A stretch of 64,000 nucleotides of DNA from Cliona cf. orientalis. Lineage: Eukaryota > Porifera > Demospongiae > Clionaida > Clionaidae. The stretch spans positions 25,232,058 through 25,296,057 of the forward strand of contig OZ005689.1 in NCBI GenBank assembly GCA_963930775.1, in the 5' to 3' direction. Every line of letters starts with the position of its first letter. The stretch's first letter is position 1. Shown here piece by piece: positions 6,936-64,000 of this stretch. Position numbers and translations under genes: made by a program. Below the pieces are notes generated by a model. It had not been told where the DNA came from. It did not search any database and saw only the letters and a program-made list of their open reading frames with translations.

Positions 6936-9900
6936 CGAATTTCGACCACGTTTTGGAAAAACATCTCGAACTTTGCCGCCACTTGGCGGTTTTGAACGTT
7001 TTTAAATTTTTTGGAAACTTAAATCTGTTCTCTACACGTCAGTGAAGGTCCCGTTTCTGTAGCCACAATGGTTACGAAGATATTGCAATTTAAAGTGAGG
7101 CACTGCTATTATGATGAATCAGATATTGCAACCTTATATCGGACAAGTTCAGAATACGAAGCAGCTGCGATCAATCGTGCCACTGGGAGGGTCGACTATC
7201 TTGGCACTCCACCGCAATCGATTGACCCACGCCCATCTACATTGCGCATGCGCACTTCCCGTACCAACACATTTTGTTCACAAAACTTATGCGCAATAAT
7301 TTTTACTCCATAATGATACACACACAATGTCATACAATATTATGATGTCAAAAGAGAAAACTCAGTGCTTTAACTGTGATCTTGTACGACAAGATATGCT
7401 AGATGGTGGCTTCTGTAACTGGCTGGTCTCCTGCTCGACTCCTATCTGGTCATCGGATTCCAGCAATGCTTTAACTTGTGATCTTGTTCGTGAAGAAATC
7501 CTTGCTGTTGGATCCTGTAACTGCTTGTTTTGGCCGTTTGACAAAAGTTCTTCTTCACCTTTCTGAACTTCTTTTGATGCTTCAACTGCTCTTGTTTTAG
7601 ACGAAGTTTTAGACGAAGTTTTAGAGAGTCTTGATGCTGAATTCAACCCACAGGTTTTAGCCTGTTTGACACATGCTCCTGCAAGTAGAAGATTCTCAAT
7701 GCACTAGATATATAGGCATTCAGCTTTTTTTTCCCTTAAAATTTGACACGGCATTAATTTTAACACAAGTCATGATATGCATCAGCCATTGTTACCAAAT
7801 GGGAGGGTAAGCCCCCGTTATTATTTAGTATGCATGACTATTAAGAGTAAAACAATCACACACACTCTGCTATATAGGCTAAAGGGTTATTTGCTTGTCT
7901 TTAGTGGTGGCAAATCCACCTAGAAATTAGGGAGTCATAACTAATCCATTAAGGAAACTTACTTCCTGCTGTGGTGCTGCCCTTCTTTGGTCCAGATTTT
8001 GGCACACTAGCAGCGTGGGTGGCCTTCTTAGCAGCCCGAGTAGCAGCCTTTTCCAGCCGTACTTGCTTCCGTTGCTCCTTTAATTGTGCTTGTTTCTTCT
8101 TTTCTTCCTCTTTCTTGTCTAGTTCGAGAAGAAATTCGGCACTAGTGAGAACCCTTGCTTCACCAGGCTTCTTCTTGGTAAGGGTACTCGGAGGAGGAGG
8201 AAGTTTAACAAACTGATCTAGCTTTAGCTTTCGAGAGATGTTTGCTGTACACGGTGGGCTTGAGTCATTCAGAGGAAGGTCAGTCTTGTCTCCCACTGTA
8301 TCTGCTCCTTGCTCCAATGTGTCTTCTAGATGGAGAGAGTCATCAGGATTCAAAGGTGAAAATTGCAGTTGACATCGCTCTGATATGGCTTCAGGGTGGT
8401 GGTTTTGCAACCACTGATTGTACCTGCTGTCTGTGGTGATGTCAAAACCTTCTTCATATCTAGTCTGAAAATGCTGCTTCTCTTCAGCTGTAAATGAAAT
8501 GTAGTGTGTCTCTGGTGATACTGGAGAGAGAGGTGAAAGTGAAAGTGGTGATAGCATTTCAGGAGATGGTGCAAATGAAACCCGCTTTTTAGACGTATGA
8601 GGACTATACAGAGGGAGATAGCTGATGCCGTTTGATTTCGCAACATCTTCAATAGGAATACTCTTTCTTTTTGGTGTGTGTTCGCCAGGAATTTTCACAG
8701 CGTATCGATCCACTGGATACACTCCTGTTGCCTTAAAGCCAGCACGAATGGTACTTGGAATCATAGCCTTTTCCCAAGCATCATGAAATAGCTTGTTGAA
8801 CTGGTAGACAGTTACTAGCCTTCCCGGATTTGCAGTCATGTATGTATTTATGACGTCATCCCAGTGCTTCTTGAGAGCATGAAAGCATGTCTTATCCAGT
8901 GGTTGGGTAGCATGAGTAGTGTTGGGTGGTAGACAAAATAAAATCACTCCCTTACTGGCTGCTGTACGCACTACATCTGCCATGTAGTGGGACGAGTGTC
9001 CATCCAACATCAAGAGGAGAGGTCTGGAAGCAGGGGCATAAAGAAGAAAATGTCGTTCCAGCCAATCGCAGAAAATCTCACCATCCATCCATCCAGATGG
9101 ACTCAAGCCGTACATCGTACCTTCGACTTCTCCCTCCATGAGAGGCTTGACCAAGTTCTTGCGCTTGAAGACAACGAGAGGTGGAATAGCATAACCAGCT
9201 GCATTTACACAGGCAAGAATGGTAATTTGCGTTTTTACGCCAGTTCCATATACCAAAACGTGCTTTGCTCCTTTCTTTGCTATCCTTTTTCCCGGTCGAA
9301 AATCCAGTGGCATTCCACTTTCATCGCAGTTGAATATACAAGATGGTCGATCTCCAAGATTATTTTTTGAAATTGTTTCCTCCAACAGATCGAAATACTT
9401 GTCAATCACATCCCTGTTAGTCGCTATAGCTCTTTTGTACGCTAAAGACTCTCCTTGACGCAGTGAAAGGTTAGGGTGCCGCTTTTTGAAACGCTCCCAC
9501 CATCCTGTGCTAACACAGCCCACATCAGAATCTGCATTTCTTGAAAGAATTGCACCCACCAGAGTCCGTACTTCCCGCACCGATTTGGGGTACCCGATCT
9601 CAGCACTTCCTATCAGAAAGTGAACCAGTTCTTCCTCCTCCTCTGGTGATAGATAGGTTGGCGCACCACTCTTGGTGCCAGGAACTACACGTCCTGAAGC
9701 ACGGTCCCCCAAGGTGCTTCTTGGGACGCCATATTCTTCTGCAGCACGTCTGATGGTCATGGACCTTGACGACACTTCCTCTAGCGCTTTTTCCATGGTG
9801 GCATCATCCCAATTTTTGTACGAAATCGGGCGAATACTAGGCTCCCTGTTCTGCAATGTTTTCTTTGTGAACTCCTTACTTTTCGAGACTCTCCCATAAA

Positions 9901-10214
9901 GTGATGATGCCATCTAATTTTAAAAAAATGGCAGTCAATAAACTAATCAGCACTCAAAGGTATTCGTAAACATCAACATGAATGCACGATTTCAACGGAT
10001 AACTTACTTCTTGCTTTCCTCTTTCTCTCTCACAAAAAGGCACGAGGTGGTTGCTCGGGGAGCAACTGCGCATGCGCAAAATTCTAACCGCATATATAAT
10101 AAGTTACCGCCCATGCGCAACTCAGCGAATAGATAGCTGGGCGTGTCTCAAAAGTAAAATGTCCGGACAATTGATAGCCACGTCCGATATCTGGTACTGT
10201 CCGATGATTGGTAA
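6936..10214 (-). mobile_element. pogo/Tigger-type element nested in the CACTA-like element
   Basis: This block interrupts the AT-rich TAGT/ACTA subterminal zone, which continues on both sides (to about 6935 and from about 10215). It contains one large intact transposase gene on the minus strand. I could not fix its terminal inverted repeats, so the boundaries are approximate to some tens of bases. Short frames at 7068-7646 are not supported as genes. pogo elements duplicate TA, and TA dinucleotides are present at the likely borders but are not diagnostic. Confidence 0.6.
7949..9913 (-). CDS. pogo/Tigger transposase, intact
   Basis: A 654-codon open frame. Residues about 33-75 form a Psq-type helix-turn-helix (WDDATMEKAL, RRAAEEYGVPRSTLGDR). 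A CENP-B-type helix-turn-helix follows at about 85-155 (GWWERFKKRHP). The DDE_1 catalytic core has Asp197 in NCDESG, Asp304 in LMLDGHSSH and Asp340 in ATQPLD, so all three acidic positions are present. The C-terminus is Lys/Glu/Ala-rich and basic, probably a coiled or nuclear-targeting tail. The ATG at 9911-9913 fits the Psq domain position. The enzyme would cut and paste its own element in the nucleus at TA sites. Length and motifs are normal for the family and nothing appears broken. Confidence 0.93.
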   Translation of the reverse strand: MASSLYGRVSKSKEFTKKTLQNREPSIRPISYKNWDDATMEKALEEVSSRSMTIRRAAEEYGVPRSTLGDRASGRVVPGTKSGAPTYLSPEEEEELVHFLIGSAEIGYPKSVREVRTLVGAILSRNADSDVGCVSTGWWERFKKRHPNLSLRQGESLAYKRAIATNRDVIDKYFDLLEETISKNNLGDRPSCIFNCDESGMPLDFRPGKRIAKKGAKHVLVYGTGVKTQITILACVNAAGYAIPPLVVFKRKNLVKPLMEGEVEGTMYGLSPSGWMDGEIFCDWLERHFLLYAPASRPLLLMLDGHSSHYMADVVRTAASKGVILFCLPPNTTHATQPLDKTCFHALKKHWDDVINTYMTANPGRLVTVYQFNKLFHDAWEKAMIPSTIRAGFKATGVYPVDRYAVKIPGEHTPKRKSIPIEDVAKSNGISYLPLYSPHTSKKRVSFAPSPEMLSPLSLSPLSPVSPETHYISFTAEEKQHFQTRYEEGFDITTDSRYNQWLQNHHPEAISERCQLQFSPLNPDDSLHLEDTLEQGADTVGDKTDLPLNDSSPPCTANISRKLKLDQFVKLPPPPSTLTKKKPGEARVLTSAEFLLELDKKEEEKKKQAQLKEQRKQVRLEKAATRAAKKATHAASVPKSGPKKGSTTAGSKFP

Positions 10215-17033: not shown

Positions 17034-17766
17034 ATGTGCATCCAAGGAACTCTGATATTGCTGTGCAACATGGACTCACTTCGTATGTTATCAACAAAAT
17101 TAATAACTGTAATTGACTATAATTTATGCCTACATGTAGAATGCATGTTATTATGACATTGTATGATTCTGGTTAGAAATATTGCTACTTATATTGATAT
17201 TGAAAGAATTTGCTACTACAGTTAAGTACATGGGGTGTTAGATTTAGTGGTGCATATAATCTAAAATTGTGCATAATGCCACTAAACATTAGACATCTAT
17301 AATCCAGATATTAGTACTTGGAATGATTGTTTTGAGATTGTATTGATACAACAAAACACTAATAATGATACACTTCATACTAAATTTAGGTACCACTGGC
17401 TCTTGGAATTAGTGTGGTATGGTGTTGCATGCTTCCTACTAAAATTAATTTTTACGTCTTAAACGTAGCAGTTGTATACTAAAATGAAACACTTGTATAC
17501 TAAAAATAAGTTCAGTAATTGTTTGTGACAGTGAATAGTAAAAACACTTATATCTAGAAGCTATTACTTAAGATTAGTACTAGTTGATCTTAAAATTAGT
17601 GTTGCATGTTGGGGGGTGCAAACTACTAATAGTAAGACAATATATTCTTAAAGTGAGGTAGCTCTATACTAAAATTAAGATAAATTAACGCTTGTGACAG
17701 TGAATGCCGAAAACACTAAAAGTTAGCAGTTTTTCTTCTTTAATTTAGTATGCATTTTTTCCAGTG
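17034..17766. repeat. Right subterminal zone of the CACTA-like element
   Basis: AT-rich sequence with many ACTAAAATTA and TTAGTAC-type motifs and a repeated phrase, GTGACAGTGAATRCCGAAAACACT (near 17530 and 17695). It ends at CCAGTG (17761-17766), followed by the duplicated TA. No gene. Confidence 0.65.
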
Positions 17767-17768
17767 TA

Positions 17769-17955
17769 CCTAGTCAGTACGGCCGCCGTACACGGAGCCC
17801 GTTGCTATGGGCGGTAATTAGAATTCTCTACCTAGATACAGCTAGATTCATCGAACTACTGTACGTTCGCTCACCTTTTTAGCTTCTTGGGCATCTTAGA
17901 ACAATCGCCGACCGTTGTCAATGGGGATTGACTACATTCACAACGATCAATGATG
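17769..17955. repeat. Right part of the split MITE
   Basis: Continues the MITE from 6137: CCTAGTCAGTACGGCCGCCG, then the conserved ATTCTCTACCTAGATACAGC. It follows the family to about 17950, where a variant interior also seen at 33056-33110 (GACTACATTCACAACGATC) is present. The far end is not clearly preserved. Confidence 0.75.
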
Positions 17956-18078
17956 AGTCACATGCATAATACACCCATGCCACGCCCCCATCGCGAGCGC
18001 ATGCACATTTTCCACGCACGTGTCTTTCGCGCACTTCAATTTCTAAACGCAGGAAATTTTTGTGTGCACACGGTGAGT

Positions 18079-21000
18079 ATGGACTCGGATGGTGTTCAAC
18101 CTGCATGGGCTCTAGGGCTAAAAAGGAGTGGCCTCTACTATGAAGGATTCGTTGACAACTTGGAAGATACACTGGAGGCACATCGACGATGTACTGTCAC
18201 TACCTATGGCACCAGGACTTCAAAAAAGTCACCAGCAACCACAGTAGTCCCTAGTAGCAACACTGACCAAGAGAATGACAGATATGTAGCAAATCAGAAG
18301 GTATAATAAATAAATTATATCATGTACGTATCTATAATGCCAAAATATATTATAAGTTTGTCAATGCAATGCCCCATCAACTAAGGCTTGTGTGATCATG
18401 ATGGGCCGCAATGGTAGCTATACACTGGCCTCTAATAGGCTAATTTTTCGATGGTAGAGGGGCATGCAGTATTGATAGAGTTATTTGTTGTATCTTGTAC
18501 GCAAGGTAGCCTTGAGAAACCTGCATAAAAAAATTAATATAACATGATAACTATTATCGCTATAGATTACCACTCAGAAATATCATTGGAAGCACAGTGC
18601 GGCAGGTAAAACGATAATACACCCTTCATTATTGGGGAAAAGAGAGATCTCCATTGCCAATTTGGTGACCACTACTTAAAAAAAAAGCCAAACAAATCAG
18701 ATACTCCAGTCACTAAGGACAGTGAACAGCCAGAGCCATTACAACCTAAACAAGTACCCAATACCAAACAAGGTACTTTTGAACAAGCCACATCAAAAAA
18801 AAAATCTAGGCCAAAATTAAGTCTTCAAGGAACACGGAAAATAGGTTGCAATGCTGGAATAAACATTCGAGAGTATATATTGTATCCAGATCACAGGGTA
18901 TCCACCGACACTCAAAATAAGTGGCAACAGCGGAAAGCACAAGAAGAAATGCTGACTCGCTTAAGGCAAGACCTCACTGATGGGAAAGCTGTGAAAACAG
19001 CAACCAAATACTACGTGTCTCTGCCAGCTGAAGAAGCCCACCACAAGTCCCACAAGACAGGCGGGATGCACGCAATGGCACAGCGTGTTCACCCAAAGGT
19101 GATAATGAAAATTCATGAGCTGGTTGGAGCAGGCATATCAGAGGTATCGGAAGTAAAACGGGCCTTAAAACTTTATATTACTAAAGAATTATGCCCAACA
19201 GATCTCCCAAACAGGGACGATAGAGCCTATTATCCAACAAATCACGACTTATCGAACCACATTCACAAAGCCAAATCACAGTTGCAGCTATCAAAGCTTG
19301 ATCAAAAAAATTTGGGACTAAAAATAGACGAATGGAAGAAAAATAGCCCAGATTCTAAGCTTTATTTTAGGCCATACAAAAAGAAATCACCCAAACAACA
19401 GCTAGAGATGGTTAATACTGAGGATGAAGTGACTGAATATGAACAAACATTACTTTGGATCCACCAAGAATCATGGCAACAGGATTTATTAATTAAGTAT
19501 GGCAATACTATCACCTTAATGGATGCTACCTATAAGACCACCCAATACGAACTAGCTCTATTCTTTCTCACAGTGAGAACAAATGTAGGCTATTCTGTAG
19601 TTGCAGAGTTTGTAATTCAACACGAGAAACAGAAGATATTACTGAGGCTCTAAAATTCATTAAACAATGGAATCCCCAATGGTCACCAAAATTCTTTATG
19701 TCTGACTATTCAGAAGCCGAAATAACAGCAGTTGAACAGACCTTCCCCACCACAAAACTGTATTTGTGTGACTTTCATAGAGAGCAGTCATGGGAAAGAT
19801 GGATAAAAAATCATCAAAATGGAGTCTCACCTGACGACCAAGAAACCATTCTTGAACTTCTTCGTTCATGTGCATGGGCTCCACCACCAGATCCAACTGA
19901 GGGCCTCCCAGTGGATGTCAATTACCAGAATGCTGTTAAGAATCTAAAAGAGAATGACATTTGGATTGAAAATAGTCAGCTGCAGTCATGGTTGAACACC
20001 ACATGGTTCTCCATTCCTCAGGTATGTTGAGATTAACCACAAGTGGTTACCACAAAACACACATGCACATGTACACTGTATAGAGATACATACCCACTCC
20101 CAAAACATACATATGTGGCAGTCCCAGGTAGAAATCAAAGATTATTCCTAGTCAATTTTGACCACTTTTTTGAATTTGAAGCTTCATAATTTAGAAATGG
20201 TAGCATCCCAGAATTTTACATTTAGTTTAGAGATACTACAATCACCTTAGAATAGGTATCTAAAATTTGGGACTAAACGATCAAGAGATATTAAAAATAT
20301 AATTGATTTAATTAACCCAATTAAAAACAGAATAATATTCGATTTCTACCTGGGACTGCCACATATATTATAATACAAGCAGGGTGACCCCTTCGACCTT
20401 CAAGCATCATCCATATACAATGTACCGTATAGTGGGAAACTTTGGCGAGGTTTTTAATTTGGCGATTTGGCGAATTTTGAAGAAAATCGCCAAATTAAAA
20501 CTCGCCAATATTTAAATAACGTATTTTTATGATGTAATGACTACGTGTGCGCATGCGCATGTGAACGAGAGCAGTGCAAAATTAGATTGATTGCTCGCAT
20601 CGCAACCTTGGTGTAAAAGAGAATCGTTTGTCTGGAATCAATGTCGCTGCTCAAGTTCTTTCAAGTTAAATATCCAACGCTACCTTCGTCATCAACTTGT
20701 GCGTACTCGTCTCTCAGCAGGAAGGACCTCGACCACGCGAACAAAGAAGTGAAACGGCGCGTTCTTGCTGTAGAGAACTCATGTGAGAAAGAAGCACCGA
20801 CACCTAGAGGCAAGTACAATAGTTGCTCACCAGAAGAAAGGGCTCAGATAGGTAAATATGCCCTAGAGAACGGTAATACCCGAGCTGCTAGACACTTCTC
20901 CAAGGTTCTCAATCGAAAGATTAATGAATCAACCGCGAGGAGGCTCAAGAGTGAGTATGTGCAAGCGTTGGCACAGAGGAAGAATGACCCTGAAGGTCCA

Positions 21001-24000
21001 TTGGTAAAATGCCTGCCAACGAAGACACAAGGAAGGCCTCTTCTTCTTGGCCAAGATATTGACAAGGCGGTCCAGGAGTACATCGAAGCGACCAGGGCAG
21101 CAGGTGGAGTTGTAAACACAGCCATTGTCATGGCAGCAGCTGTTGGCATAATGTCTTCCCGTGATGTTACAAAGCTGAGTTCGCATGGAGGGTACGTGAA
21201 CATCACAAAAACTTGGGCGAAGTCTCTACTCAATCGGATGGGGTACGTGAAGAGGAAGTGCTCTAATGCTGGAAAAATCTCTCCCATACTGTTTGCAGAG
21301 ATTCAAGAAGTTTTCCTGGCAGATATTAAGGCACAGGTGCTGATGAATGATATTCCTGATGAACTAATCATCAACTGGGACCAAACTGGTCTCCCACTTG
21401 TCCCTACTGGTGAGTGGACCATGCACCGTGCTGGTGAGAAGATTATCCCCATTGCCAATTCCGATGACAAACGTCAGATAACAGCCGTTCTTGCAGCTTC
21501 AATGGCTGGTGAATACCTTGCCCCTCAGCTGATCTTCCAAGGGAAGACACAACGCTGCCATCCACCAGTAGCCTTTCCGAAAGGATGGGACATCTGGCAC
21601 TCTGAAAATCATTGGTCAAATGAAGATACCATGCAGCGATACATTGAGCAAATTGTCATTCCCTTTATCGATCAAAAGCGCCAAGATTTAAGCCTAGACA
21701 AATCACATACAGCTCTGGTACTGTTTGACTGTTTTCGAGGCCAGACGACTGCTACTATTGAGTCACTGCTACAGCAGAATAACATCGTTGCGGTACGGAT
21801 CCCTCCAAATTGCACTGACAAGTTACAACCAATGGATGTATCGATCAATAAGCCTATGAAGGATGGGATGAGGACCAGGTTTCAAACCTGGTTTGCAAGC
21901 GAAGTGCAGAAGCAGCTAAAAGATGTCCCAGTGGACCAAGTGAAAGTTGGTGTCACTGCTGCTGCTATCAAGCCCTTGAGTGCTAACTGGATCATTTCTA
22001 CCTGGCAAGAGATTGAAAACAGACCAGACCTTGCTATCAATGGGTTCCGGGCAGCAGATATTTTGAGTGCTGTTGAATCTATTCGAGCAGACCTCATTAG
22101 AAGCTACACAGTCATAGCTACAGTATCGACATGTTTTGTGTATGTATAATAGTTATGAATAATGTATGATTAAAAACAGTTGATGAATGTAATACAGATA
22201 CAATGTTGATAGGGAGTATGATGGACTCTGAACTACCGGTAATACTTGTTAGCATGGAAATGGAGTTAGGTAGTAGTTCTCAAAACACGTAACTAGATGA
22301 GATCTCATGTTCTCCTGAATGAATTGCCCAGGCTTTTTGTTGTTAGCTAGTGCCACACATGTTGCGATTGCATAGAGACCACAGTCTAAGGCTCCATCCT
22401 GCCGTGGACTGTCTCCCATTTGAATAATACTCGGCCCAAACAGGTTTGTAAGGAACTTGGTTGTTACTTTGTCAACATCTGAGTACAAAGAGTCAAACAC
22501 CTGAAGTTTAGGTGCACATCCTATATTTGTCGCCGCAATCCAGTGGTTTCCCCGGGTGTGAATTATCTGCAAATAGGTAGAAGTTACTGGTCCTTTCTGA
22601 TGCTGATACTTATCAAGGACTAGAGTCGACTGAAGACCAGAAATATGAGGAAATTGTGTCTGTAATAATTCCTGTGCGAAATTGATATGATTGTCACTGA
22701 GCTCTTGTCCAGACATGAGCCTAGTTTTGTCCACTTCCGTCAGGTTAATCCCCTTCCAGCTGAGCCATCTGTTTGGTGAAGTGTCAGGAAGCTTCAGCTT
22801 ATCTACCTCTATTATTTCTGAGCTGATCTTTCTCATTTTGTTGGGTGGTTCATTCTCTGCTCCTGGCGCTGTTGTCTGCTTCACACTTAATGGAGCGACA
22901 AGCTTCCGCATTTTGGCCACGTCCTTGGGCTCTCCATGAAATATCAACACGCAGGGTACCTCCAAACCCCCTTGGGGAAGATCATCGGAGAAACGACGGC
23001 TTGCAGTGATCCTACAACCAATAGTGCCCTTTCGTCTCAAGAAAAGTGAACACGCAGCCGATATCTTTCGGGGGACGTGGCCAACTACAGTGCTTCTACG
23101 TACTACAGCGACAGCATATGGATCCTCGGTATTTGTTGGCTCACACCTGCAATCTAACTCTTCTCCAACAGATGGGCTCCAAATATTCTTGTAAATATGG
23201 TGGCGAAGAACACAACTATCGATCTGACACGTCTCCATTTTTGACAGCTGCTGCTAGCTACGTACATGTAGCTCGAGCTCGGCGAATGGCGTGGCCGGCC
23301 GGCCAGCTGATCCATACATTACGTCACTTGTTTATCGCGTCATGCGCTTGCGCTCACAATTTGTCAAGTCGCCAAATTTAAAATTCGCCAATATCTTTAA
23401 GGGAGTGATTCGCCAAATTTAATGCTCGCCAAATTTACCCGCTATACGGTATATCATTGTAGCCAGCAGTTTACTGTTGATTGCCAGATATTGATGATTA
23501 AAATTAATACCTCAATTTCTATAGAAATGGGCTCGAGCATATCGTGATAGGGAATATCATGCTGCTGTTGATACTAATAATGGTGCAGAAGCCCTCAACA
23601 AATCACTGAAGTACTCCTACTTACCAAAGAGACGCACAATGACACTATCAGCAGTTGCTACCCTATTAGTGGAAGATTTTCTCCCTGAATGTCAAAAAAC
23701 TTATCTCTTTAATAACTACAAGCAGTCAAAGGAATACCGGAGCTACAAGGGTATTGTTCCGGATTATTTACAGGACCGTCCTCGGAGTGTGATCTTACAC
23801 TGCTTAGATCGGCAAGCCACTAGTATGAAATTCAAAGAGGAGGACATTGAGGATGTGGATGCCATCAATGGAGTGTTCAAAGTAAATAGCAAGAAGGAGA
23901 GAAGTGTTAACTTTGGACACAACTCACCTGCCTCTATGCCTAGTTGTAGCTGCCCAGACTGGAACAAGTTTCATATGCCATGCAAGCACTTTTTTGCTAT

Positions 24001-25895
24001 TTTTCGGCTTCGACCAGCATGGACATGGAACAGACTACCAAAGACCTACTTGGAGAGTGCCTACCTCAGTCTTGATAACACTGCATTGAGAGATTACCAT
24101 CAAGAGCCTCAGGCACCTTGTCCTGAAACAGGTAGTGATTACACAGTTAGTGATGATTTCACCGAAACTTATCAGGATGAATTGCCACGCAAAAAGGTAA
24201 ATAATACAATGCCATGCACACATTACGGAAAGCATAAAATATGTATCAAGGTAGATAGCTCACTTTAAAACAACATTTGTGTCACGTATGCACTGTACAA
24301 CTCATTTCAATCTTAATATAGGTACTTTCAGTTTGTCAACAAGCACAAAAGGCCAGAATAACACTAAAAATGATTGAAACCCTCACATACTCCTGCCAGG
24401 ATGCTGAACAATTAGCCACTGTGAATTCAAAGCTTGAGGAGATATTTAGCAATATGAAAACCAATATGCCTCAATCAGATGGGCTGGTAATTAGACCAAT
24501 AATTGCTAAGCGAGCTAAGCAGATATCACAAAAGTACAGAAGTCAACTAGCAGTGATTAACAGCAAGTACTCCGCTTTACCACCTGAAAAAAAGCGGGGA
24601 CGACGAAAGCAGAGTGCTTCCTTCAGAAATAGAGTGGGCATAAAAGCACAAAGACTTCGTAAGGTACATAATTACTATTATAATATTGTCATACTAAAAA
24701 TTGATCCTACTCATACCAAAATAAATATAGGCTGGCACTACAAATGCAGGTCGAAGTAAAGTGAGGAGGGAGCTAAGTAGTATAGCGGGAAGTTTTCAGT
24801 GAACACTTAATACTGGTATGAAATCTACAGGGCTTGAACAAAGATGGAGAGAATACAGGGGAAGGAAAGCACAAGACCTATGCCAATACAGTCACTTCTA
24901 AGACGGCTTCAAGCTCACCAACACTTACAAGCACATCCAAATCAACATCTTCAACAGCAGTCGTTACTGCCCAATCAACCACATGCAACTCTCGACAACT
25001 ATCTACACAGCCCTCTACTTCAAAAAGTGCTCCTAAGTCAGGTAAACAACTTGAACATTATGTATACATCTACAGCTGATTCCAGTCAGTATGCAATTTT
25101 GACCATACACCTGTACATCCCACCAGTTCATGTATGTACAACTTACTGTTGAATCATTTTAGGAGTCAAAAGACCACGCTGCTCATGTGAGGGCTGCTCA
25201 TTATCTGACTGCGGAGTATGTAGCAACTGTTGTGACATGAAGAAGTTTGGAGGACCTGGGCGAAAAAAGCAAAGATGTATGAAAAGAAAATGCCAATTCG
25301 CTAAGAGTGTGAAGGTATATAAAATTAATTATAGTATGACATGTATAAACCTGTCATAATGTAATTAACATATCTAGGACCCAACTAATGGATTTAAGGA
25401 AATAGAGTGATTTCTAACTTCCCATCAGAGAAGAGCAACACCAATACAAGCAGATGGCAACTGCTTTTTTAGGGCAGTTTCTGAGGCTCTGTACGGACAG
25501 CAGGAAAACCATGAAGAAATACGCTCCACAGTAGTCTGCTTTATTGCATCAAACAAGGATGTTTTTGTGAAATTTATCCCATCAACAGCTGATTCTTTTG
25601 ACGAGCATTTGCAAAGAATGCTGCAGAGGGGTACATGGGCTACCCACTTAGAAATCTTTGCTACCGCTAGCCTTCTCCAGATTCCCATATACATTGCTTC
25701 ACAAAGGAGTAAAACGATGGTGTACTACTGGGAAATGTACAGCCCACAGAGCTATAATTCAGTACAATACTGCTCCCTCAAAGAACATGGCTTAGGGCAC
25801 ATTGAGTTGGCACATGTACAGAGATGCCACTATATAACAGTGAAGACAAATAGTGGAAGCCAACCAGAGCACCCCCCACCATTAGAAGGTACTGA
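18079..25895 (+). CDS. MULE-type transposase gene with SWIM, CXXC and OTU domains
   Basis: Exons: 18079-18300; about 18566-20021 (N-terminal FIIGEKRDLHCQFGDHY block, then the MULE core with Asp in MDATYKT and MSDYSEAE, and LCDFHREQSW); 23525-24196 (with a SWIM zinc motif, CSCPDWNKFHMPCKHF); 24322-24663; 24831-25041 (Ser/Thr-rich); 25163-25314 (CXXC zinc finger with CGVCSNC and the KFGGPG motif, binder of unmethylated CpG in known families); then about 25378-25895 (OTU Cys protease, DGNCFFRA and CHYITV). The intron at 20022-23524 holds a complete pogo-like transposon. Frame changes lie near 18604 and 19627. One in-frame TGA (at about 25407) separates the CXXC and OTU parts. The OTU part could therefore be a separate gene, but exon phase argues for one ancestral protein. 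Confidence 0.72.
18301..18565 (+). other. First intron of the MULE-type gene
   Basis: AT-rich, between the CAGAAG|gtataa donor at 18300 and an acceptor near 18565. No embedded gene or repeat is recognised. Confidence 0.45.
20641..22149 (+). CDS. pogo-like DDE transposase
   Basis: A 502-codon uninterrupted frame. The N-terminal 100 residues include a helix-turn-helix-like stretch (SPEERAQIGKYALENGNTRA). The DDE_1 core has Asp247 in INWDQTG, Asp363 in LVLFDCFRGQ and Asp399 in DKLQPMDV, so the catalytic triad is complete. It differs clearly from the transposase at 7949-9913, including WDQTG for CDESG and DCFRGQ for DGHSSH. It would mobilise the surrounding 3.0-kb element at TA targets. The stop at 22147-22149 lies 100 bp from the end of the convergent protease gene. 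Confidence 0.92.
   Translation: MSLLKFFQVKYPTLPSSSTCAYSSLSRKDLDHANKEVKRRVLAVENSCEKEAPTPRGKYNSCSPEERAQIGKYALENGNTRAARHFSKVLNRKINESTARRLKSEYVQALAQRKNDPEGPLVKCLPTKTQGRPLLLGQDIDKAVQEYIEATRAAGGVVNTAIVMAAAVGIMSSRDVTKLSSHGGYVNITKTWAKSLLNRMGYVKRKCSNAGKISPILFAEIQEVFLADIKAQVLMNDIPDELIINWDQTGLPLVPTGEWTMHRAGEKIIPIANSDDKRQITAVLAASMAGEYLAPQLIFQGKTQRCHPPVAFPKGWDIWHSENHWSNEDTMQRYIEQIVIPFIDQKRQDLSLDKSHTALVLFDCFRGQTTATIESLLQQNNIVAVRIPPNCTDKLQPMDVSINKPMKDGMRTRFQTWFASEVQKQLKDVPVDQVKVGVTAAAIKPLSANWIISTWQEIENRPDLAINGFRAADILSAVESIRADLIRSYTVIATVSTCFVYV
22249..23238 (-). CDS. HIRAN-Ulp1 (C48) protease encoded by a pogo-like element
   Basis: A 329-codon intact frame. Residues about 8-105 resemble a HIRAN domain (VGEELDC, EDPYAVAVV, VGHVPRKIS, LEVPC). 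A linker leads to a Ulp1/SENP-like Cys protease at about 175-325, with His232 in GNHWIA, Asp249 in VFDSLY, Gln280 in DSPRQDG and Cys286 in DCGLYAIA. That is a full catalytic set. Ulp1 enzymes process or remove SUMO or related modifiers, and HIRAN domains in known proteins bind DNA ends. Its location between the element's own inverted repeats shows that it is cargo or a second element gene. A role in controlling modification of transposase or host factors is inference. Confidence 0.88.
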   Translation of the reverse strand: METCQIDSCVLRHHIYKNIWSPSVGEELDCRCEPTNTEDPYAVAVVRRSTVVGHVPRKISAACSLFLRRKGTIGCRITASRRFSDDLPQGGLEVPCVLIFHGEPKDVAKMRKLVAPLSVKQTTAPGAENEPPNKMRKISSEIIEVDKLKLPDTSPNRWLSWKGINLTEVDKTRLMSGQELSDNHINFAQELLQTQFPHISGLQSTLVLDKYQHQKGPVTSTYLQIIHTRGNHWIAATNIGCAPKLQVFDSLYSDVDKVTTKFLTNLFGPSIIQMGDSPRQDGALDCGLYAIATCVALANNKKPGQFIQENMRSHLVTCFENYYLTPFPC

Positions 25896-26040
25896 AACCT
25901 ATCATCCACTTAATAATGACTATATTATTTACCTCTTTCATTTGTGCTTTTCTTTTTTTTATTTCATACTCCAGTCCAATCGCCAACGTGCCAACTTCCG
26001 GAAGTTTATCTACGCGATTACGTCATATCCAGCTAGCTGA

Positions 26041-26626
26041 GTGCGCAAAAATGGAGGAACGAGGTGAACGGTAAGTTTCGTCATTTATCATCGGCTGTCA
26101 GAAGCACGCCGAGATATTCTATATTTGTTGAAGTACGTAGGATATCAGTCTAAAGTTCTATGTTGTTTAAATCCAGAGAAAGTCTCCCTTTCGCTGCCAG
26201 CTGTATCAAGATGTGTGGAGGTGAAAAACGGCGACTGGGAGAGTGTGGCACTTGAGGGCACTTTTCGACTTCTGTTCGCGTTGGACACACACAGTATTTG
26301 GTAAGCAGTAAGAGCTGAATCTTACCTTTCAAATGGTATACAACATGAAGTATGATAGCTTGCAAGAAAAAAACGGCCCCAATTGATAAACTGCAGCAGT
26401 ATAGTAGTTAATAGGTGATTGCCTCCATTTAGCCAAGAATGCCAGTTGGTTTGGAAATAGTCAGTATTCACTATAAAGAGTGTTTGAATAATTATATAAG
26501 TTGCATTGCCCAAATGCTCCTCCCCTTGCATAGTGCAAATACCTTTTATGTATGAAGTATAATATACACAAAAATCTGATCTCGTAATCTGTAATTTAGA
26601 ACACAAAAATAGACTATTGTATATGC
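26041..26626. other. Between MULE-type gene and CXC-domain gene
   Basis: Holds a possible tiny plus exon (ATGGAGGAACGAGGTGAACG then GT, at 26051) and an open stretch at about 26176-26301 before a GTAAGC donor. Both are weak as genes. At 26361-26382 is the left copy of a 22-bp direct repeat. The rest is AT-rich and non-coding. Confidence 0.35.
26361..26382. repeat. 22-bp direct repeat, left copy
   Basis: Begins TGCAAGAAAAAAACGGC and ends CCCAA. An identical 22-mer lies in the same orientation at 32294-32315, on the other side of the CXC-domain gene. Both copies are preceded by TAGCT. Confidence 0.85.
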
Positions 26627-29600
26627 TCATGGTATGGGCGCTTCTTGCTCTTCGTCACTGTCCTCACTCTGACAACTAGCTTCACTCTCACTACTTTCCT
26701 CAAATATACCCCTCGTTTGTTCCTCTACTTCATTTTGTAGGCTGCTGTAGTGTTCTTCATCATCACTTTCTTCGGTGGTCATTTCTGCCTCCTTGCTGTT
26801 GCAGCTGTGGTGCTCTTCAAGACGTTCATTCACCTCCAACTCCTGAAGAGGTTCTTGCTCCATTGAGGATGAAGGAAGTGATGTAGGTAAGTTTCTGCAG
26901 CCAATGCACTGGCATCCTGGACCACAATAGGCACCATTTTTCTTGCAACTACATTTTCTGGTGTCACACCCGGTTTTGCATTTACAGCCAGATAACGTTT
27001 GGTTTACAATTTCCTTGGCCTTACTGATGTTCTCTGGAGTGTCCCAGATAATGTCCAGTTTCCCTTCACTGTCTCTTGTCCAGCCATACTTCTCCAAATC
27101 TGTGTAATACAAATCCAATATGTAAACATAGAGTATGTTGTGTGTTCTGTGGTACTGGTATGAGTATTTTAGTGTTATCTAAAATTTAATTAGTGACAAT
27201 AGTGATAACTCACCTGGTAGAGCTAGTGTGTTGTGTGTTGCCTGCTTCCACATCTCCAGCACCCATATGCACCGTGCCCAATGAAGTTTCAGTGCCTCTG
27301 TTGATGGCATAGTTTGACTCTCAGTGTCTGCTCTTTGCCATACTATTTGACGAATGGCCTCCAATCACTGTGTGATGCGAATTTCACATGTCGATGCTTC
27401 TGGTATCGAGTGGTATAGAGCAACAGGAGATCTATGCTTGAATGCTGAGGCATGTGCCTTGTAGTATGCACAACCTACTAGCCTCAAAAATGCATAGAGC
27501 TCTGGGCTGTTGGGGTCAGTAGTGATACTCCCCAATGAACCAGTCATTTCTTTGCCTGTAATAAAACTAGCGTACTGAAAAAGTGTGGCTAGAAAAGAAA
27601 TTTTACCAATCCGTTGAAAGAACGAAGTATAATCACTACCTATACATATGTAGGTTGTTTGAAGCACTTGTGGCCTCTGACCTTCCGGGATCATTGCTAG
27701 ATCTGGATCAGATCCCAGCGCTGAAAACAGTGCATTCAGGTGTATGAATTTAGCATCCTTCTTCATGCGTTTGCTCAACTGAATCATGATGTCACAATTT
27801 TGCACCATTTCTGTTTTAGCTGATAGTCCAATGTGATAGATATCAGTGTCCGGGCTGAAAATTAGTATTTTCTGTGCACACGACTTCGAACTGTGCAACC
27901 ATACAATTTGGTCCGCTTCAGATGCATTACTTCGCAAAGTGGGATCCAAAATAATGTTACCTTCTGATCCAACGCGAAATGCATTAGCTCCTTTATTGGT
28001 AACGAACTGATCTCCATCCATTAAAATACTCTTTACCAATAGTAACATCTCCTCTGCTACATAGGTAATTAGTCTGTTTTTGCATATTCTGCATGCTAAG
28101 ACTTGACGCCAGTTGTTTGGAATAGGAAAGGAGCCTTCAAACTGTAAGCATTGATGACTTTCATGTGATACTTTGTCTCTCCTGTAGTGCTCAAGTTCCT
28201 TAGGTGAACCAGGCTGACAGCTGGGGTTGTCAAACACTACGTGTACTGCTGAGACACCAAGTGAGTAGTGTGGTTGTACATAACGTTGTAGTAAATGTTG
28301 TACATAGGACGTCATGTTTGTCATGATGGGAGTAGGTGGAGTTTGTATCATAAACATTCCTTCCAAGATGGCAATGTCAGCTACCCAGTTTGGTGGCAGC
28401 TGCTGGATGATAATGGGTACCTTGCTATATCGCTTTTGAATATATCCGGTTACTGTGCTTTTTGATGATTTATGGGGGAGTCCGCTAGAGTCCATTAATG
28501 CCTTTGGTAACCCTGATATGGGTGCACAACAAATATTCATTGTTGTGGGATCCCCTCCATATTTTGCTATCCAAGACAGTTGTCTTTTCAAGAATCTCTG
28601 ATAGAGTTCTCTTTCCTTTTCTACCTGTTTTACTCTCTGTTTTTCTGTTTTTGTGGCTGAAAAGGTACACAAACGTTCCTTCCTAACGGGAGCTTGAGTG
28701 CTTGCATCTTGTAACAGTTTACTACTGACATAGGTTTCAAATGCAGTTTGTCCTATTGTTCTCAGTGCAAGCATATCATGTGATACTTCAGGCGATGCCT
28801 GAATGTTGTCCAAAAAATTCCACAGACCCTGGTTCGTACTTTCTTCATGGAACATCCCATGTTTTGAGATTGATTCCTGCATTGCTTTTATGTTCGAAGC
28901 TATTTTTTCGTCCTTTTTTCTTCGCTTGTATGAAAATGTGGTGGCTGTTGTCCTCTTCATGTGAATTTGTGATGTGAATTGAATGTGGTGGGAAATGAAT
29001 TCCATCTTCTTTTCACTTGGTCTAACCACAGCTAGTTTGGCGTCTTTGTTGATTTTCATTTCATGGCACTCATCTAGAGCCACAGCACGCCACTTGTTGG
29101 TCGATAGCCTGACACCAAACCCACCTGCTTTCAGGTGCTGCAACACATCATTTGGCATGCTTGCAAGATCCTTGAGATGTTGTGGAATCAGTTTCCGATA
29201 AATAGGTCTATCCAGTGCCTCAAATACTGGTGCCATTAGTTTTAGGCTTCCAGTGCGCAATTGCCAGTTTTGATATCGGATAGCTGTATACAGCCCAATG
29301 TACGCTAGGCAGTCACTTGTCAGAAATTGAAACCATAATTTTATAGTATCTTGTTTAGCTGTCAAATTGGTCATAAAATCCATGAAATCTGTTTGTGATA
29401 CACACAATTTTAGTTTTTCAAATTGTGAATCCACTGTGTCATTAAATTTTTGGAGTTGACTGTCATCTTTGATGCTGGCAAATGAGTCCAAAATTTTGGC
29501 AATTTCCAGCTCAATTGCATTGCTGTGTTGTTGTTTTGACTTGTTGATGTATAGTTCAAGAAAGAACTGAGTTAGAGCTGCCGTTACCTGGATTAGAAAG

Positions 29601-31970
29601 TAATGTGTTCTCTTAAAGTTGGAGCAGTTTATCAGGGATGTAGGGGTTTCTGATCTGTGGCCACTAGATTTTCCGAGGTGTGCAAGTCCAGCATCTGCAT
29701 AGGCTTTCATGAGGGCCTTCTGATAATTGTATAGTGTGTGCCAATCCCCAGGGAATGGAAGAACCCAATTAAAGTGGTCTCCATAGTCCTCCTTTACGGA
29801 ATGAATTGTATTGAATAGTTTAGCATCACCCACTGTTATCAGCCATTTCTGTCGTAGTTCAACAATGAATGTTTGATGTAGCCGAGCTAGTAGCTTCACT
29901 ACAGTTGCTTTATCGTCCGCTCTTTCACTTTGAATTTCAAGGTATACCACATTAGATACTTCTGTAGTGGTACCCTGAACTCTGAAGATCTGTCATCACC
30001 CACGAGGAAGATTTCACTAGCAGACTTCAAAATAGACTAACTGGAGGAGTCAAGTTTGGGATCTTTAAAGGAGAAACCTTTCAAATGCATGCTTCTATTG
30101 TACTACGATTCAAATAGAAGATGCTCAATTCTACCACAACTTCCTTCTCTGCTACACTGCATGCAACCTAAAGAGTTTCTGTGTGCGGTGATCGTTCGGT
30201 TAAACTCCTGCAACGACGTTTAGGTTTAATGGCTACTACTGGCGATTGCATGGGTGATGACCTACGTCGTTTGCTTGCTTCTGTTAGTAGGATTGACTGT
30301 GGTAAGGGTTGTACACACTGCGTTGATACCCCATGCCAACTTAGAGTTGCATCAGTGCTGCATACCATGGCATGTACTTGAAGTACATCAATGTTATCAA
30401 TGGAGACCACAGAGAGTGTATTAGGTATACGTTCTCGTTTGACACCTCGACTAATTCGTGTGGATACCACTGACGTTGCTAGTCTGCTAGCTGTATCTAT
30501 GGAAGCAACAGCTCCTACTCTGTTCATAATCCTTACCAGTTCAAGTGATCCACCATGGCATAGTATGGTATCAGTAACACATGAAGGGGCATGCTGCATG
30601 AACGATTGGTCGTAGAGGAGGACACACATAGCATATACCTGCCTAATCACCTTAGGAGTGATATTTGAGTCATTATATTGAAAATTCTGTTTGCTGGCTC
30701 AGACTGATCTTGTTATCCGTTGAATAAAGGCTAGTAGTGTAGGATCTAACTTTGGTAATAATTACTCCAAGTTGAGAGTGCTGTACTCGTGTGGATTGTT
30801 TTTGTAGTGGGACACTAAATCCTTTGCCTGTTTGTGTAGCCGATTATTGATGTACGATGATGATACCTGTACAAGCCTCTCGTCTAGTGTACAGGTAGCT
30901 GCTTGAGGGGGTGATGGATGGATTTCGTGTGTACTTTTTTGCTTGATAGCCGCTGCCTGTTTTCCTAAGGCATGGGACACAGCTGCTACTAAATCACAAT
31001 CTTTCAGGAATAGTATTGAGCCATGCCTTTTGTGTTTGCATTGCACCTCAAGTAGGCCATTGAAAGTCAGATTTAGTCGTGATAAAAGCCACCTTTGTCC
31101 TGGAATGCTATCTCTGCTTATTCCATTACTTTCGACATCGTGTACAAAGTCATCATATACGGTGGACAAAAGAACTGCTTCATTGTTAGCAAGGCAATCG
31201 GCCAAGATTTTGGCACATCTAGTGCTCGCAAGCTCAAAATAGTCCTGTTTGGACCTTGTTTCCGGTGGAATTATGAGATATTTATGAATTTTCGTATCCA
31301 AACTATTAATAATGTCGTGTACCATAATATTGATGACTGGCTGTGGATATTTCTTTATGTTATGAATAATATTGTTACAGTGTTTATAGCATGGAAGGCA
31401 TAAGCGTGTTTCAGCCGTAAGCATTTTATGTTCATTGCTGATACGATTTAAGTGTGCACTAATTACTTCTGGGTCTGAACATTTTCGGGTAAATGCTGAT
31501 TCTCCTCTCCCTGGAAGTGCTCCGCATGATCCACATGGCTCTTTGGGATGTAGCTCCCTGTACAATGCATTGTAATGATCCCTGCACAGACCCACAGATA
31601 TAGAGGTTGACTCCAACACTGTGAATGCTTCCATCTTGACAGCTAGTAGTTGCTCTATTTCGGATGGTGTGGCTAGTCGAGTATTGGAGTGAATCTGTTC
31701 ATGACAAGATGTGATATTACAAACTCCAGCTTTGTTTGGTTGTTTTTGCACCCACCTAGGACAGGCTTTCAAATTGGGATTTTGAATAAATCGTGCGATT
31801 TGTTTAATGCATGGATAGCATATGCATGATAAATCCGAATGAGTTCGTTTGTATTGAAAGATTACTCCCTTCTCTTCCAGTGTTAAGTCTTGATAGTGTT
31901 TGTACTTTTCAGAGCTCTTTGTGCATAGTGAGCACGGTCCGCATGTATGCAAGCATTCTTTAGTTGCCAT
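26627..31970 (-). pseudogene. Large transposon-like gene, Cys-rich N-terminus and CXC C-terminus
   Basis: Minus-strand pieces read as one protein. 31970-30762 (402 codons, starts MATKECLHTCGPCSLC) has repeated C..C/H pairs, likely zinc-binding. 30650-30168 is basic near its end. 29950-27365 (861 codons) is a long conserved core with VVKLLARLHQTF and VLPFPGDWHTLYNYQKALMK. 27364-27179 (LEAIRQIVWQRAD) continues in frame after one TGA at 27365-27367. 27118-26627 carries a tesmin/TSO1-like CXC domain (CKCKTGCDTRKCSCKK, CGPGCQC) and an acidic Glu/Ser tail. From memory, proteins with this core and a CXC tail are multicopy in sponges and cnidarians. I do not know the mobile element class. Frames change near 29940, so this copy is probably broken. 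Confidence 0.6.
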
Positions 31971-61643: not shown

Positions 61644-64000
61644 TCAGCGCTTCTGGGGCAATTTGGGGATATATCCACCCACGCAATTAAATGGTACCTT
61701 AAGGGCTTTGAAATACCTGTGGATTCTCAACAGCAGGAAGTTGAAACAAATCTCCAAACAGATAGACAGATTTTCCAGCAAACAAAAGTTTGTTCTTTCC
61801 GGCATCCTTTGTTGCAAACAATACAGTTTATGGACTATTTCTAATAGACGTGCCGATATCATGCTACATTCATGTATTATCAGCACGTCTGCATTATTGA
61901 TCGTACTGCAGTAAACAGTCCCCCATTCAAGAAGGTTGACACCCAGCCTGAAATATCTGTGAACTGTCTTTCCACCTAGAAGGTAAGCTGCTGAGCCAGA
62001 TAAGGGCAAAACCTCAACAAATTATTCCTGACAGAGGGTCGGATGACCAACTACAGTATGGATCTGGAAGCTTTTCCCGGTACCACCAGGGCCAGTCACA
62101 AACAGCAATCGTTGCTGCGAAGAGTTGGTCATAAGTTTGAAAGCTTCTATCTGTGACGGAATCAAGAACTTTATACGTGCCTGCAACTCTTCCTCATCTT
62201 TCACTAGTCTAGTTGAATTGCACCCAACTAAGCTGATAAGATCTGTAGATTGTCCTACTCCAGAAGGTAGGTCTACACATGCTCCCTCAACACGTGATTG
62301 GTCATCGCATTTGTCATCACCATCCAGGTCTACTTCTCCCAAACCTAAATCTCTTAGCTTGCTATTCACAGCCTCACTAGCCTCTGTTTTGGAGGATCAG
62401 CATCTTAGCTAGTCTGTGTATGTAATGAACACTAAAACTATGTTTCGCCGTATCTTCAAGGGAACTAATGGCATCCTCCTGCTTTATCAGGTCTCGTAGG
62501 CCTTGTATGTTTTGGAAATATTGCTATTACTCAGCAAGTCTTTCTCACTTCTAAAAGCTATATTGAACTTCTTATGTTCTAGCCAATTATCATTTGCCGT
62601 TACAGTAACAAAAAAATCTGGCACACAAAATGCAGCTAAATCCAAGTATTCTTTGACCCAATACTTCTTTGTTCCTGGTAGAGTTGGGGGGATATACTGA
62701 CCTAGTTATGCACTTTCTCACCACTACCCAAATGTGATAAAACATACTCTTTGTAAGTGGAAAGTCACAATTATAATTCTCAATGGCAGTCATAGGATAT
62801 TTCATGTTGTACATTAATATTCTAAATTTTATGACCCAATCATATGTAAAAAAGGTAATACTTTGTCATGACGCCATCTAGGATCAGCATGCATCAATCT
62901 GATTTTTGCTTACTGGCCGTGAACTGAAGATGAGCGAAGAGTCATGTCAAAGCCCCCTCTATCAAATTGATATAGATGTGGAAACAATTTCTCCTCAATT
63001 TTGGGATCTCTTAAGCTCATTTTGTATGATGTACTAAGGAGTTTCAAATCTTCGTCACTAGCTATTCTCTACGTCTTTGTACACCAGCATTATCCAACAA
63101 TATCATGTCATTTATCCCTTGAATGTGAGCATTCGCAACGTCACCTAGTGGATAGGCTTCTATGATCATTCCTTCACATTGCCCAAGATATTCTGCAGAA
63201 AGCTGTTTACTGGATACTATTTCAATATCACCAGTTTTCATAGGAAGAGGATTCCCAGCTCCACTCACGGTTGTTGATGGAAAATAAGCATATAGTGTTT
63301 CTAACTGAGCCAAAAATTGTTCATATAAGGGATTATTTTTCTTTAGCCAGTGAAAGGCTTTCAAAACGGCTTCTCTGTCGTAGGGTACAGTTATGTCTCC
63401 AATGTGCTTTTGAAATTGAAGTATCCCTGCCATGCCCCTCTAATGATCTATAGACACACCATATCCAATTGGACCTGAACTATGCACATAGGAATAGTTG
63501 GATGGTTTGAACGTGCTACAGTACAATGATCCTATTGCTAGTGTACGGATTTCATCAAACCCAGCTACATCATCCTTAATACAATCTGGTAATGACTCAA
63601 AATCATCAAAAAGCTCTTCACTTGAGCTAAGGTTACCACAGTGTCTACAACATGCCACTTTGAGCACCCCATCCTTATCCATTGTCACAATAGTTAGGCT
63701 GTAGGCTGTAGAGAATAGGTTCTCAAATTTAGAAGCTCTATAGGGAAAGATTTTCTTCCTACTGTTCATCCATTTGACATCACATGGAAACAAAATTATC
63801 CCACACACAACAAATACAAATCAGCTCGCACACACTCAAACCCATCACCAAAATCAATAATTTGTTCACAATATTCATGCCAAATTGACCATTGTGCGTC
63901 CGCTTCCTTTATCCGTACGTTGATTGTTGCTGCTCGAACACCATACTTTTTTGCCAACTCTTTATTATCAGCATTATCCACATCAACACTACATGTAAAC
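61644..64000 (-). pseudogene. Helitron with PIF1-like helicase, partial
   Basis: Minus-strand pieces in order. 63981-63796 and 63808-63440 are N-terminal parts with Cys pairs (CCRHCGNL). 63433-63062 has the Helitron-type DREAVLKAFHWLKKNNPLYE. About 63060-62900 has KIEEKLFPHLYQFDRGGFD. 62369-62022 carries the helicase Walker A (FVTGPGGTGKSF). 62009-61644 carries AYLLGGKTVHRYFRLGVN and the DEAD-like Walker B variant IIHECSMIS. The HUH Rep motifs are not seen, and the gene seems to extend beyond the window. Frames change several times. A 3' end hairpin with CTRR is not identified. Confidence 0.6.

Follow-up and report, generated by a model that had tools for sequence, protein, structure and literature searches.

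On the forward strand of a 64,000-nucleotide stretch of the genome of Cliona cf. orientalis (the whole of which is called the window here), positions 18079-26036 encode first an ALS2CR8 (CARF-type) domain, which is followed by a MULE/ZSWIM-type RNase H core and a SWIM finger; after a basic stretch and then a Ser/Thr-rich linker come a CXXC zinc finger and, last, an OTU protease, the named domains being matched by Pfam. The named domains are real and lie on one strand in the stated order, and they probably belong to one spliced gene encoding a MULE-type transposase that carries the ALS2CR8 domain, a DDE RNase H core, the SWIM finger, a basic linker, the CXXC finger and a C-terminal OTU protease. 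The original prediction had read MULE, SWIM, CXXC and OTU in this order on one strand; the Pfam profile search agrees with the order, but the splice model has to be corrected in places, and the ALS2CR8 domain preceding the core (PF15299, E 5.8e-27) had been overlooked. The features are as follows.

17601-18000, + strand: promoter-like, CpG-rich region ahead of the gene, with a CpG observed/expected ratio of 1.05 (median of the window 0.51)
18079-18300, + strand: possible first exon, provisional; ATG, 74 codons, phase 0; open frame without a Pfam match, weak splice scores (donor -0.3, acceptor 0.5)
18566-18606, + strand: possible, provisional beginning of exon 2; with it the ALS2CR8 match begins at profile position 12 instead of 20, at a score that is no higher (93.8 against 95.6 bits)
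18607-18609, + strand: in-frame stop TAA, first frame break, from ORF reading
18610-19653, + strand: ORF with ALS2CR8 (CARF-type), followed by the N-terminal half of the RNase H core, which includes the D of DATYKT (19522); first halves of the ZSWIM1-3_RNaseH-like and MULE profiles
19620-19640, + strand: second frame break, inside the RNase H core; MULE profile positions 2-45 in one frame, 45-95 in another
19638-20021, + strand: exon end with the second half of the RNase H core and the D of SDYSEAE (19704); Pfam, frame and motif reading
20022-23524, + strand: GT-AG intron of 3503 bases with two insertions; donor among the top 0.4% of GT sites in the window, equally good joins in 3 of 400 random gaps
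20111-20366, no strand assigned: small inverted-repeat element of 256 bases, arms of 37 nt, 95%
20425-23449, no strand assigned: nested pogo-type element with TA on each side, its ends placed to within a few bases; it encodes a DDE_1 transposase (+) and, in a second gene (-), HIRAN with a weak Ulp1 (C48) match
23525-24196, + strand: exon with the third acidic residue, E of NNGAE (23588), and the SWIM finger from 23945 (PF04434; C.C...C.H)
24322-24663, + strand: exon encoding the basic sequence KKRGRRKQ; its frame is open, the introns flanking it are GT-AG, and a candidate start of its own lies at 24209
24831-25041, + strand: Ser/Thr-rich linker exon without an in-frame ATG; frame and splice scoring
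25163-25314, + strand: exon with a CXXC zinc finger containing KFGG (PF02008; KDM2A/2B top in the PDB)
25408-25410, + strand: TGA reached through acceptor 25378 of the original prediction, from frame reading
25429-25888, + strand: exon with an OTU cysteine protease, DGNC, and HY 122 residues after the Cys (PF02338; OTUD1, OTUD5 and OTUD3 in the PDB)
25975-26036, + strand: possible last exon, TAG-ended, provisional; acceptor among the top 0.6% of AG sites, frame closes at the stop

Domains and frame breaks

The ALS2CR8 domain scores 95.6 bits against a cut-off of 28.9, and the first in-frame stop, TAA at 18607-18609, sits between the likely exon start and the ORF that encodes this domain. The second break lies in the core itself: the match to the MULE profile reaches position 45 in the ORF 18610-19653 and picks up at the same position, at about 19638, in the ORF 19536-20030, which leaves no room for an intron and identifies a frame break rather than an exon junction. 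DATYKT and SDYSEAE, which had been thought to be joined by exon phase, are instead found in different, overlapping frames of one exon. Separately, the two halves of the MULE profile (PF10551) stay below the cut-off of 27.6 bits (17.4 bits, E 0.0062, and 24 bits, E 5.3e-05), and read with an X across the break they give 39.2 bits (E 9.6e-10), with ZSWIM1-3_RNaseH-like at E 3.8e-09 in the same kind of reading. The catalytic D, D and E were placed at 19522, 19704 and 23588 by motif rather than by structure, from forms that we take to be typical (DATYKT, SDYSEAE and NNGAE). A PDB search with the ALS2CR8/MULE ORF returned a single weak match, to a reverse transcriptase (E 0.012), and AlphaFold2 models from single sequences were unusable (mean pLDDT 36.4 for this ORF and 32.9 for the OTU exon).

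The copy is broken at 19620-19640 and probably also near 18605-18610, and with two frame breaks this copy, or its assembly, could not give the whole protein. It seems doubtful to us that both breaks arose in the assembly and that the animal itself has an intact gene, a reading compatible with a single gene: the exons from 23525 onward are open through CXXC and OTU when acceptor 25429 is used, as such a reading would have it, but two breaks within about 1 kb are also consistent with decay.

The SWIM finger is marginal, passing the cut-off of 19.6 on its exon alone (20.1 bits, E 0.00047) but falling to 18.1 bits in the joined read. Among 22 stretches of genome contigs found with the SWIM exon, only L001, from a Nitrospina MAG, was confirmed, and it was judged a chance match because the match runs through a stop codon, the core peptide of the match is repeated at another place in L001 and the surrounding ORFs look bacterial by eye. 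The basic exon (24322-24663) has two Pfam matches, both far under the cut-off.

The CXXC finger is well supported by Pfam (E 2e-11), and 25 distinct PDB sequences match its exon at E of at most 0.01, with KDM2A and KDM2B leading; three of the 25 are NLRP1, weak matches that are not credible. The four best PDB matches are the fingers of KDM2A, KDM2B and FBXL19, which have DMKKFGGPGR.KQ in common with this finger. The KFGG of the original prediction aligns to KDM2A/2B, but its eight cysteines are nine, and the first pair is C-x-C where KDM2A, KDM2B and FBXL19 have C-x2-C. This first spacing is one residue short compared with the solved fingers shown, and the remaining six are the same as in KDM2A; judged from the sequence, the shortened pair may or may not disturb zinc binding. 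In contrast to KDM2A, KDM2B and FBXL19, no JmjC or F-box match was found by Pfam in the exons scanned.

The OTU protease with its DGNC motif was borne out by Pfam (E 3.8e-16) and by alignment to OTUD1, OTUD5 and OTUD3. Its six distinct PDB matches comprise OTUD1, OTUD5 (two), OTUD3 and two entries named RNA-dependent RNA polymerase, which are presumably viral OTUs. The candidate catalytic His, that of CHYITV, is plausible by its distance of 122 residues from the Cys and lies beyond the Pfam match; in five of the six PDB matches the alignment offers no partner for it, since four stop short and the fifth pairs no His with it, and the last 76 residues of the exon alone matched no Pfam family. In the joined read from linker to OTU, CXXC (E 5.7e-10) and OTU (E 7.9e-16) are both retained.

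The junction by which this exon had been entered, 25314/25378, does not hold, because it reads DPTNGFKEIE and then the TGA at 25408-25410. With acceptor 25429 the phase stays 0 and the TGA is bypassed, and the score is 3.9, against 1.0 for 25378. As a speculation, both acceptors may be used, giving CXXC-ended and OTU-ended proteins.

One gene or two neighbours

Whether the transposase continues into CXXC and OTU depends on the joins between exons. For each pair of flanks, the best open in-phase join was compared with those obtained when the same flanks were placed around 400 random gaps of the window, using coarse splice weights taken from the metazoan consensus. This control covered the joins from the core to OTU; introns 18301-18565 and 25889-25974, at the two ends of the gene, have splice scores only. 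Equally good joins were found in 3 of the 400 gaps for core to NNGAE exon, for SWIM to basic exon (where acceptor 24400 outscores 24322 and is the best) and for CXXC to OTU, and in 4 of 400 for linker to CXXC. The linker-CXXC junction of the original prediction, 25041/25163, is GT-AG in phase 1. The weakest link is the join between the basic exon and the linker (24663/24831), which was equalled in 34 of 400 gaps. The only AATAAA or ATTAAA in 24600-27200 is an AATAAA at 24720, inside this same intron, so that a transcript could end before CXXC; past the OTU stop there are only variant polyadenylation-type signals, at 26385, 26472 and 26561.

These observations speak for two neighbours, a broken MULE transposase ending after SWIM followed by a separate CXXC and OTU gene, a reading that we consider unlikely. 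It can also draw on possible own starts. The basic exon has one ATG-donor combination (ATG 24209, donor 24250, score 2.1), and the OTU exon has nine, of which three reach a donor score of at least 1.2: a pair within the CXXC exon, and ATG 25060 with donor 25131 (score 1.9), a candidate start of its own. For the CXXC exon, none of the six combinations reaches a donor score of 1.2. Exons 24831-25041, 25163-25314 and 25429-25888 are each preceded by an in-frame stop at a distance of no more than about 20 bases, and none has an in-frame ATG ahead of the domain; for the linker and CXXC exons this absence speaks against an independent gene.

The CpG profile also speaks for one gene. When a bin of 400 bases with an observed/expected ratio of at least 0.95 is called CpG-rich, 18 of the 160 bins of the window qualify, among them those at 17601, at 26001 and at both ends of the nested pogo element, while 23601-26000 contains none. 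In a 200-base profile of 24001-25900 the maximum is a small rise to 0.83 at 24501, a point on the other side. A single gene is thus favoured by the quality of the splice sites, the absence of in-frame start codons and the absence of an intervening CpG-rich bin, and CXXC and OTU as their own gene came out weaker when tested. The continuation of the MULE transposase into CXXC and OTU, as originally proposed, is therefore favoured but not proved, with the weak join 24663/24831 and the possible own starts at 24209 and 25060 on the other side.

Mobile element or immobile host gene

The single gene could also be one that the host has domesticated from a MULE transposase, an origin that CARF- and ZSWIM-like genes may have too, and that is no longer mobile, although we would not regard this as likely. 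It is encouraged by the failure to detect terminal inverted repeats (TIRs), a target-site duplication or a second copy in the window, by the several introns and the CpG-rich start, and by the ALS2CR8 domain, which takes its name from a human gene. Of the 76 inverted pairs between 15000 and 29000, the 25 longest include no terminal inverted repeat, the 20 matches listed in a blastn of the flanks have a lowest E of 0.91 and contain no terminal repeats, and a combined scan of the flanks for repeats and duplications found no terminal inverted repeats either. The same scan gave one candidate duplication of 8-11 bp (score 15.4), but 8 of 10 random placements yielded one at least as good and the other 2 yielded none; two of the 8 are the same candidate, 2 of the 10 placements overlap, and one overlaps the left flank under test. 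The duplication scan had no working positive control, since the nested pogo element, with its duplication of 2 bp, could not serve as one. No second copy is present in the 64,000-nt window. In viral contigs, stretches with the peptide patterns were found for the ALS2CR8/MULE ORF (6), the SWIM exon (4), the OTU exon (3) and the pogo transposase (3), none of which was confirmed, and such one-protein contig scans reach close relatives only.

Against an immobile host gene stand the frame broken twice, the retention of all three acidic residues and the surrounding genes of other elements. An intact open frame would be expected of a domesticated MULE gene, and the assembly has two breaks. MULEs without terminal inverted repeats are listed in PMC6446971.

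The large intron, 20022-23524, would by subtraction be about 220 bases long without its two insertions, similar to the other introns of the gene, and the inverted-repeat and pogo insertions are therefore probably younger than the gene. On the opposite strand of the nested pogo element lies a gene with HIRAN (8e-06) and a weak Ulp1 (C48) match (0.034), and the 400-base bins at the two ends of the element are CpG-rich, with ratios of 1.46 and 1.20. Elsewhere in the window, on the minus strand, we noted a second pogo-type ORF at 7949-9913, open for 654 aa (DDE_1 7.2e-24, HTH_psq and HTH_Tnp_Tc5), a tesmin/TSO1-like CXC ORF (TCR, just under the cut-off) adjoining an 875-aa ORF with weak DUF6589 at 26627-29992, perhaps an element gene, and a weak PIF1-like helicase match (0.0061, under the cut-off) at 62022-62396, perhaps part of a Helitron. 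CpG is depleted in the window to 0.58 of expectation, TpG/CpA is in excess at 1.27, and these values together with the introns fit a methylated animal genome.

Relation to described transposases and host genes

By Pfam, the Cliona gene shares its ALS2CR8 and RNase H-like domains with CARF (ALS2CR8) and ZSWIM1/3. To our knowledge, CARF and ZSWIM1/3 are host genes without CXXC or OTU. ALS2CR8 was absent from the matches listed in the openly licensed literature searched for it, and a transposase with CXXC was likewise absent from the titles and abstract openings among the matches listed in the openly licensed literature. The original prediction that no element with this order has been described is not contradicted to that extent for CXXC, but the OTU protease has published company. 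MuDR-6_HM, a Hydra MULE of clade 14 without a TIR, carries an "Ovarian Tumour Gene" extra motif (PMC6446971); judged by its table description, it pairs MULE with OTU as the Cliona gene does, with no zinc finger listed for it. The available main text of that paper contains no occurrence of CXXC and describes a Phytophthora clade of which 14 members have SET, as well as several clades without TIRs. On Ginger1 transposases, OTU or Ulp1 is found C-terminally, as OTU is here, Helitron proteins with OTU and Mutators with Ulp1 are described as well, and the ubiquitin pathway is proposed to take part in transposition (PMC2836005). The Ginger1 transposase is, however, of the Gypsy-integrase type and not a MULE, and CXXC does not occur in the available part of that paper. 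MULE-derived FHY3-type factors are reported in animals, Amphimedon included, in PMC10027918, the available main text of which mentions neither CXXC nor SWIM; OTU, SWIM and CXXC are all absent from that of PMC13359780, and the available part of PMC12460157 names CXXC for DNMT1 and TET. The pairing of MULE and OTU thus has a published precedent in MuDR-6_HM of Hydra, and the addition of CXXC is without one among the matches listed, as far as the available parts of these sources extend.

If the single transposase gene is taken as a working model, the ALS2CR8 domain and the SWIM finger would hold the ends of the element and the DDE core would cut and join. The CXXC finger might tether the protein to unmethylated CpG, either at the CpG-rich promoter of the element itself or at host promoters, and the OTU protease might deubiquitinate the transposase itself or the chromatin there. 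Judging from the domains, we hold these CpG-tethering and ubiquitin-removing roles to be possible, in a tentative sense, and regard tethering to the element's own CpG-rich promoter, which would protect that promoter against silencing, as no less likely than aiming at host promoters. The aiming at active promoters and the countering of ubiquitin tagging put forward in the original prediction would be tentative in the same way. The stretch 25901-26300, at the 3' end of the OTU gene, is CpG-rich and promoter-like, with a short ATG ORF and a donor by eye; it is the type of site that a CpG reader might choose, and a single case shows nothing.

A more far-reaching idea, which we think quite improbable, is that a MULE lineage took up an OTU protease and a KDM2-like CXXC finger, with which its transposase would find unmethylated CpG promoters in a methylated genome and remove ubiquitin there, with a built-in reader and eraser of the chromatin state. 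KDM2B recruits Polycomb complexes that lay a histone ubiquitin mark at CpG islands, and this mark, at the same islands, would be an example of a target. If intact, expressed relatives keep the domain order, the transposase would connect a readout of DNA methylation with the choice of targets or with evasion of silencing. Conservation of the order in relatives would also add one more family to the transposases that carry a ubiquitin- or SUMO-removing protease, and it would link host genes of the CARF and ZSWIM types to a MULE lineage with regulatory add-ons.
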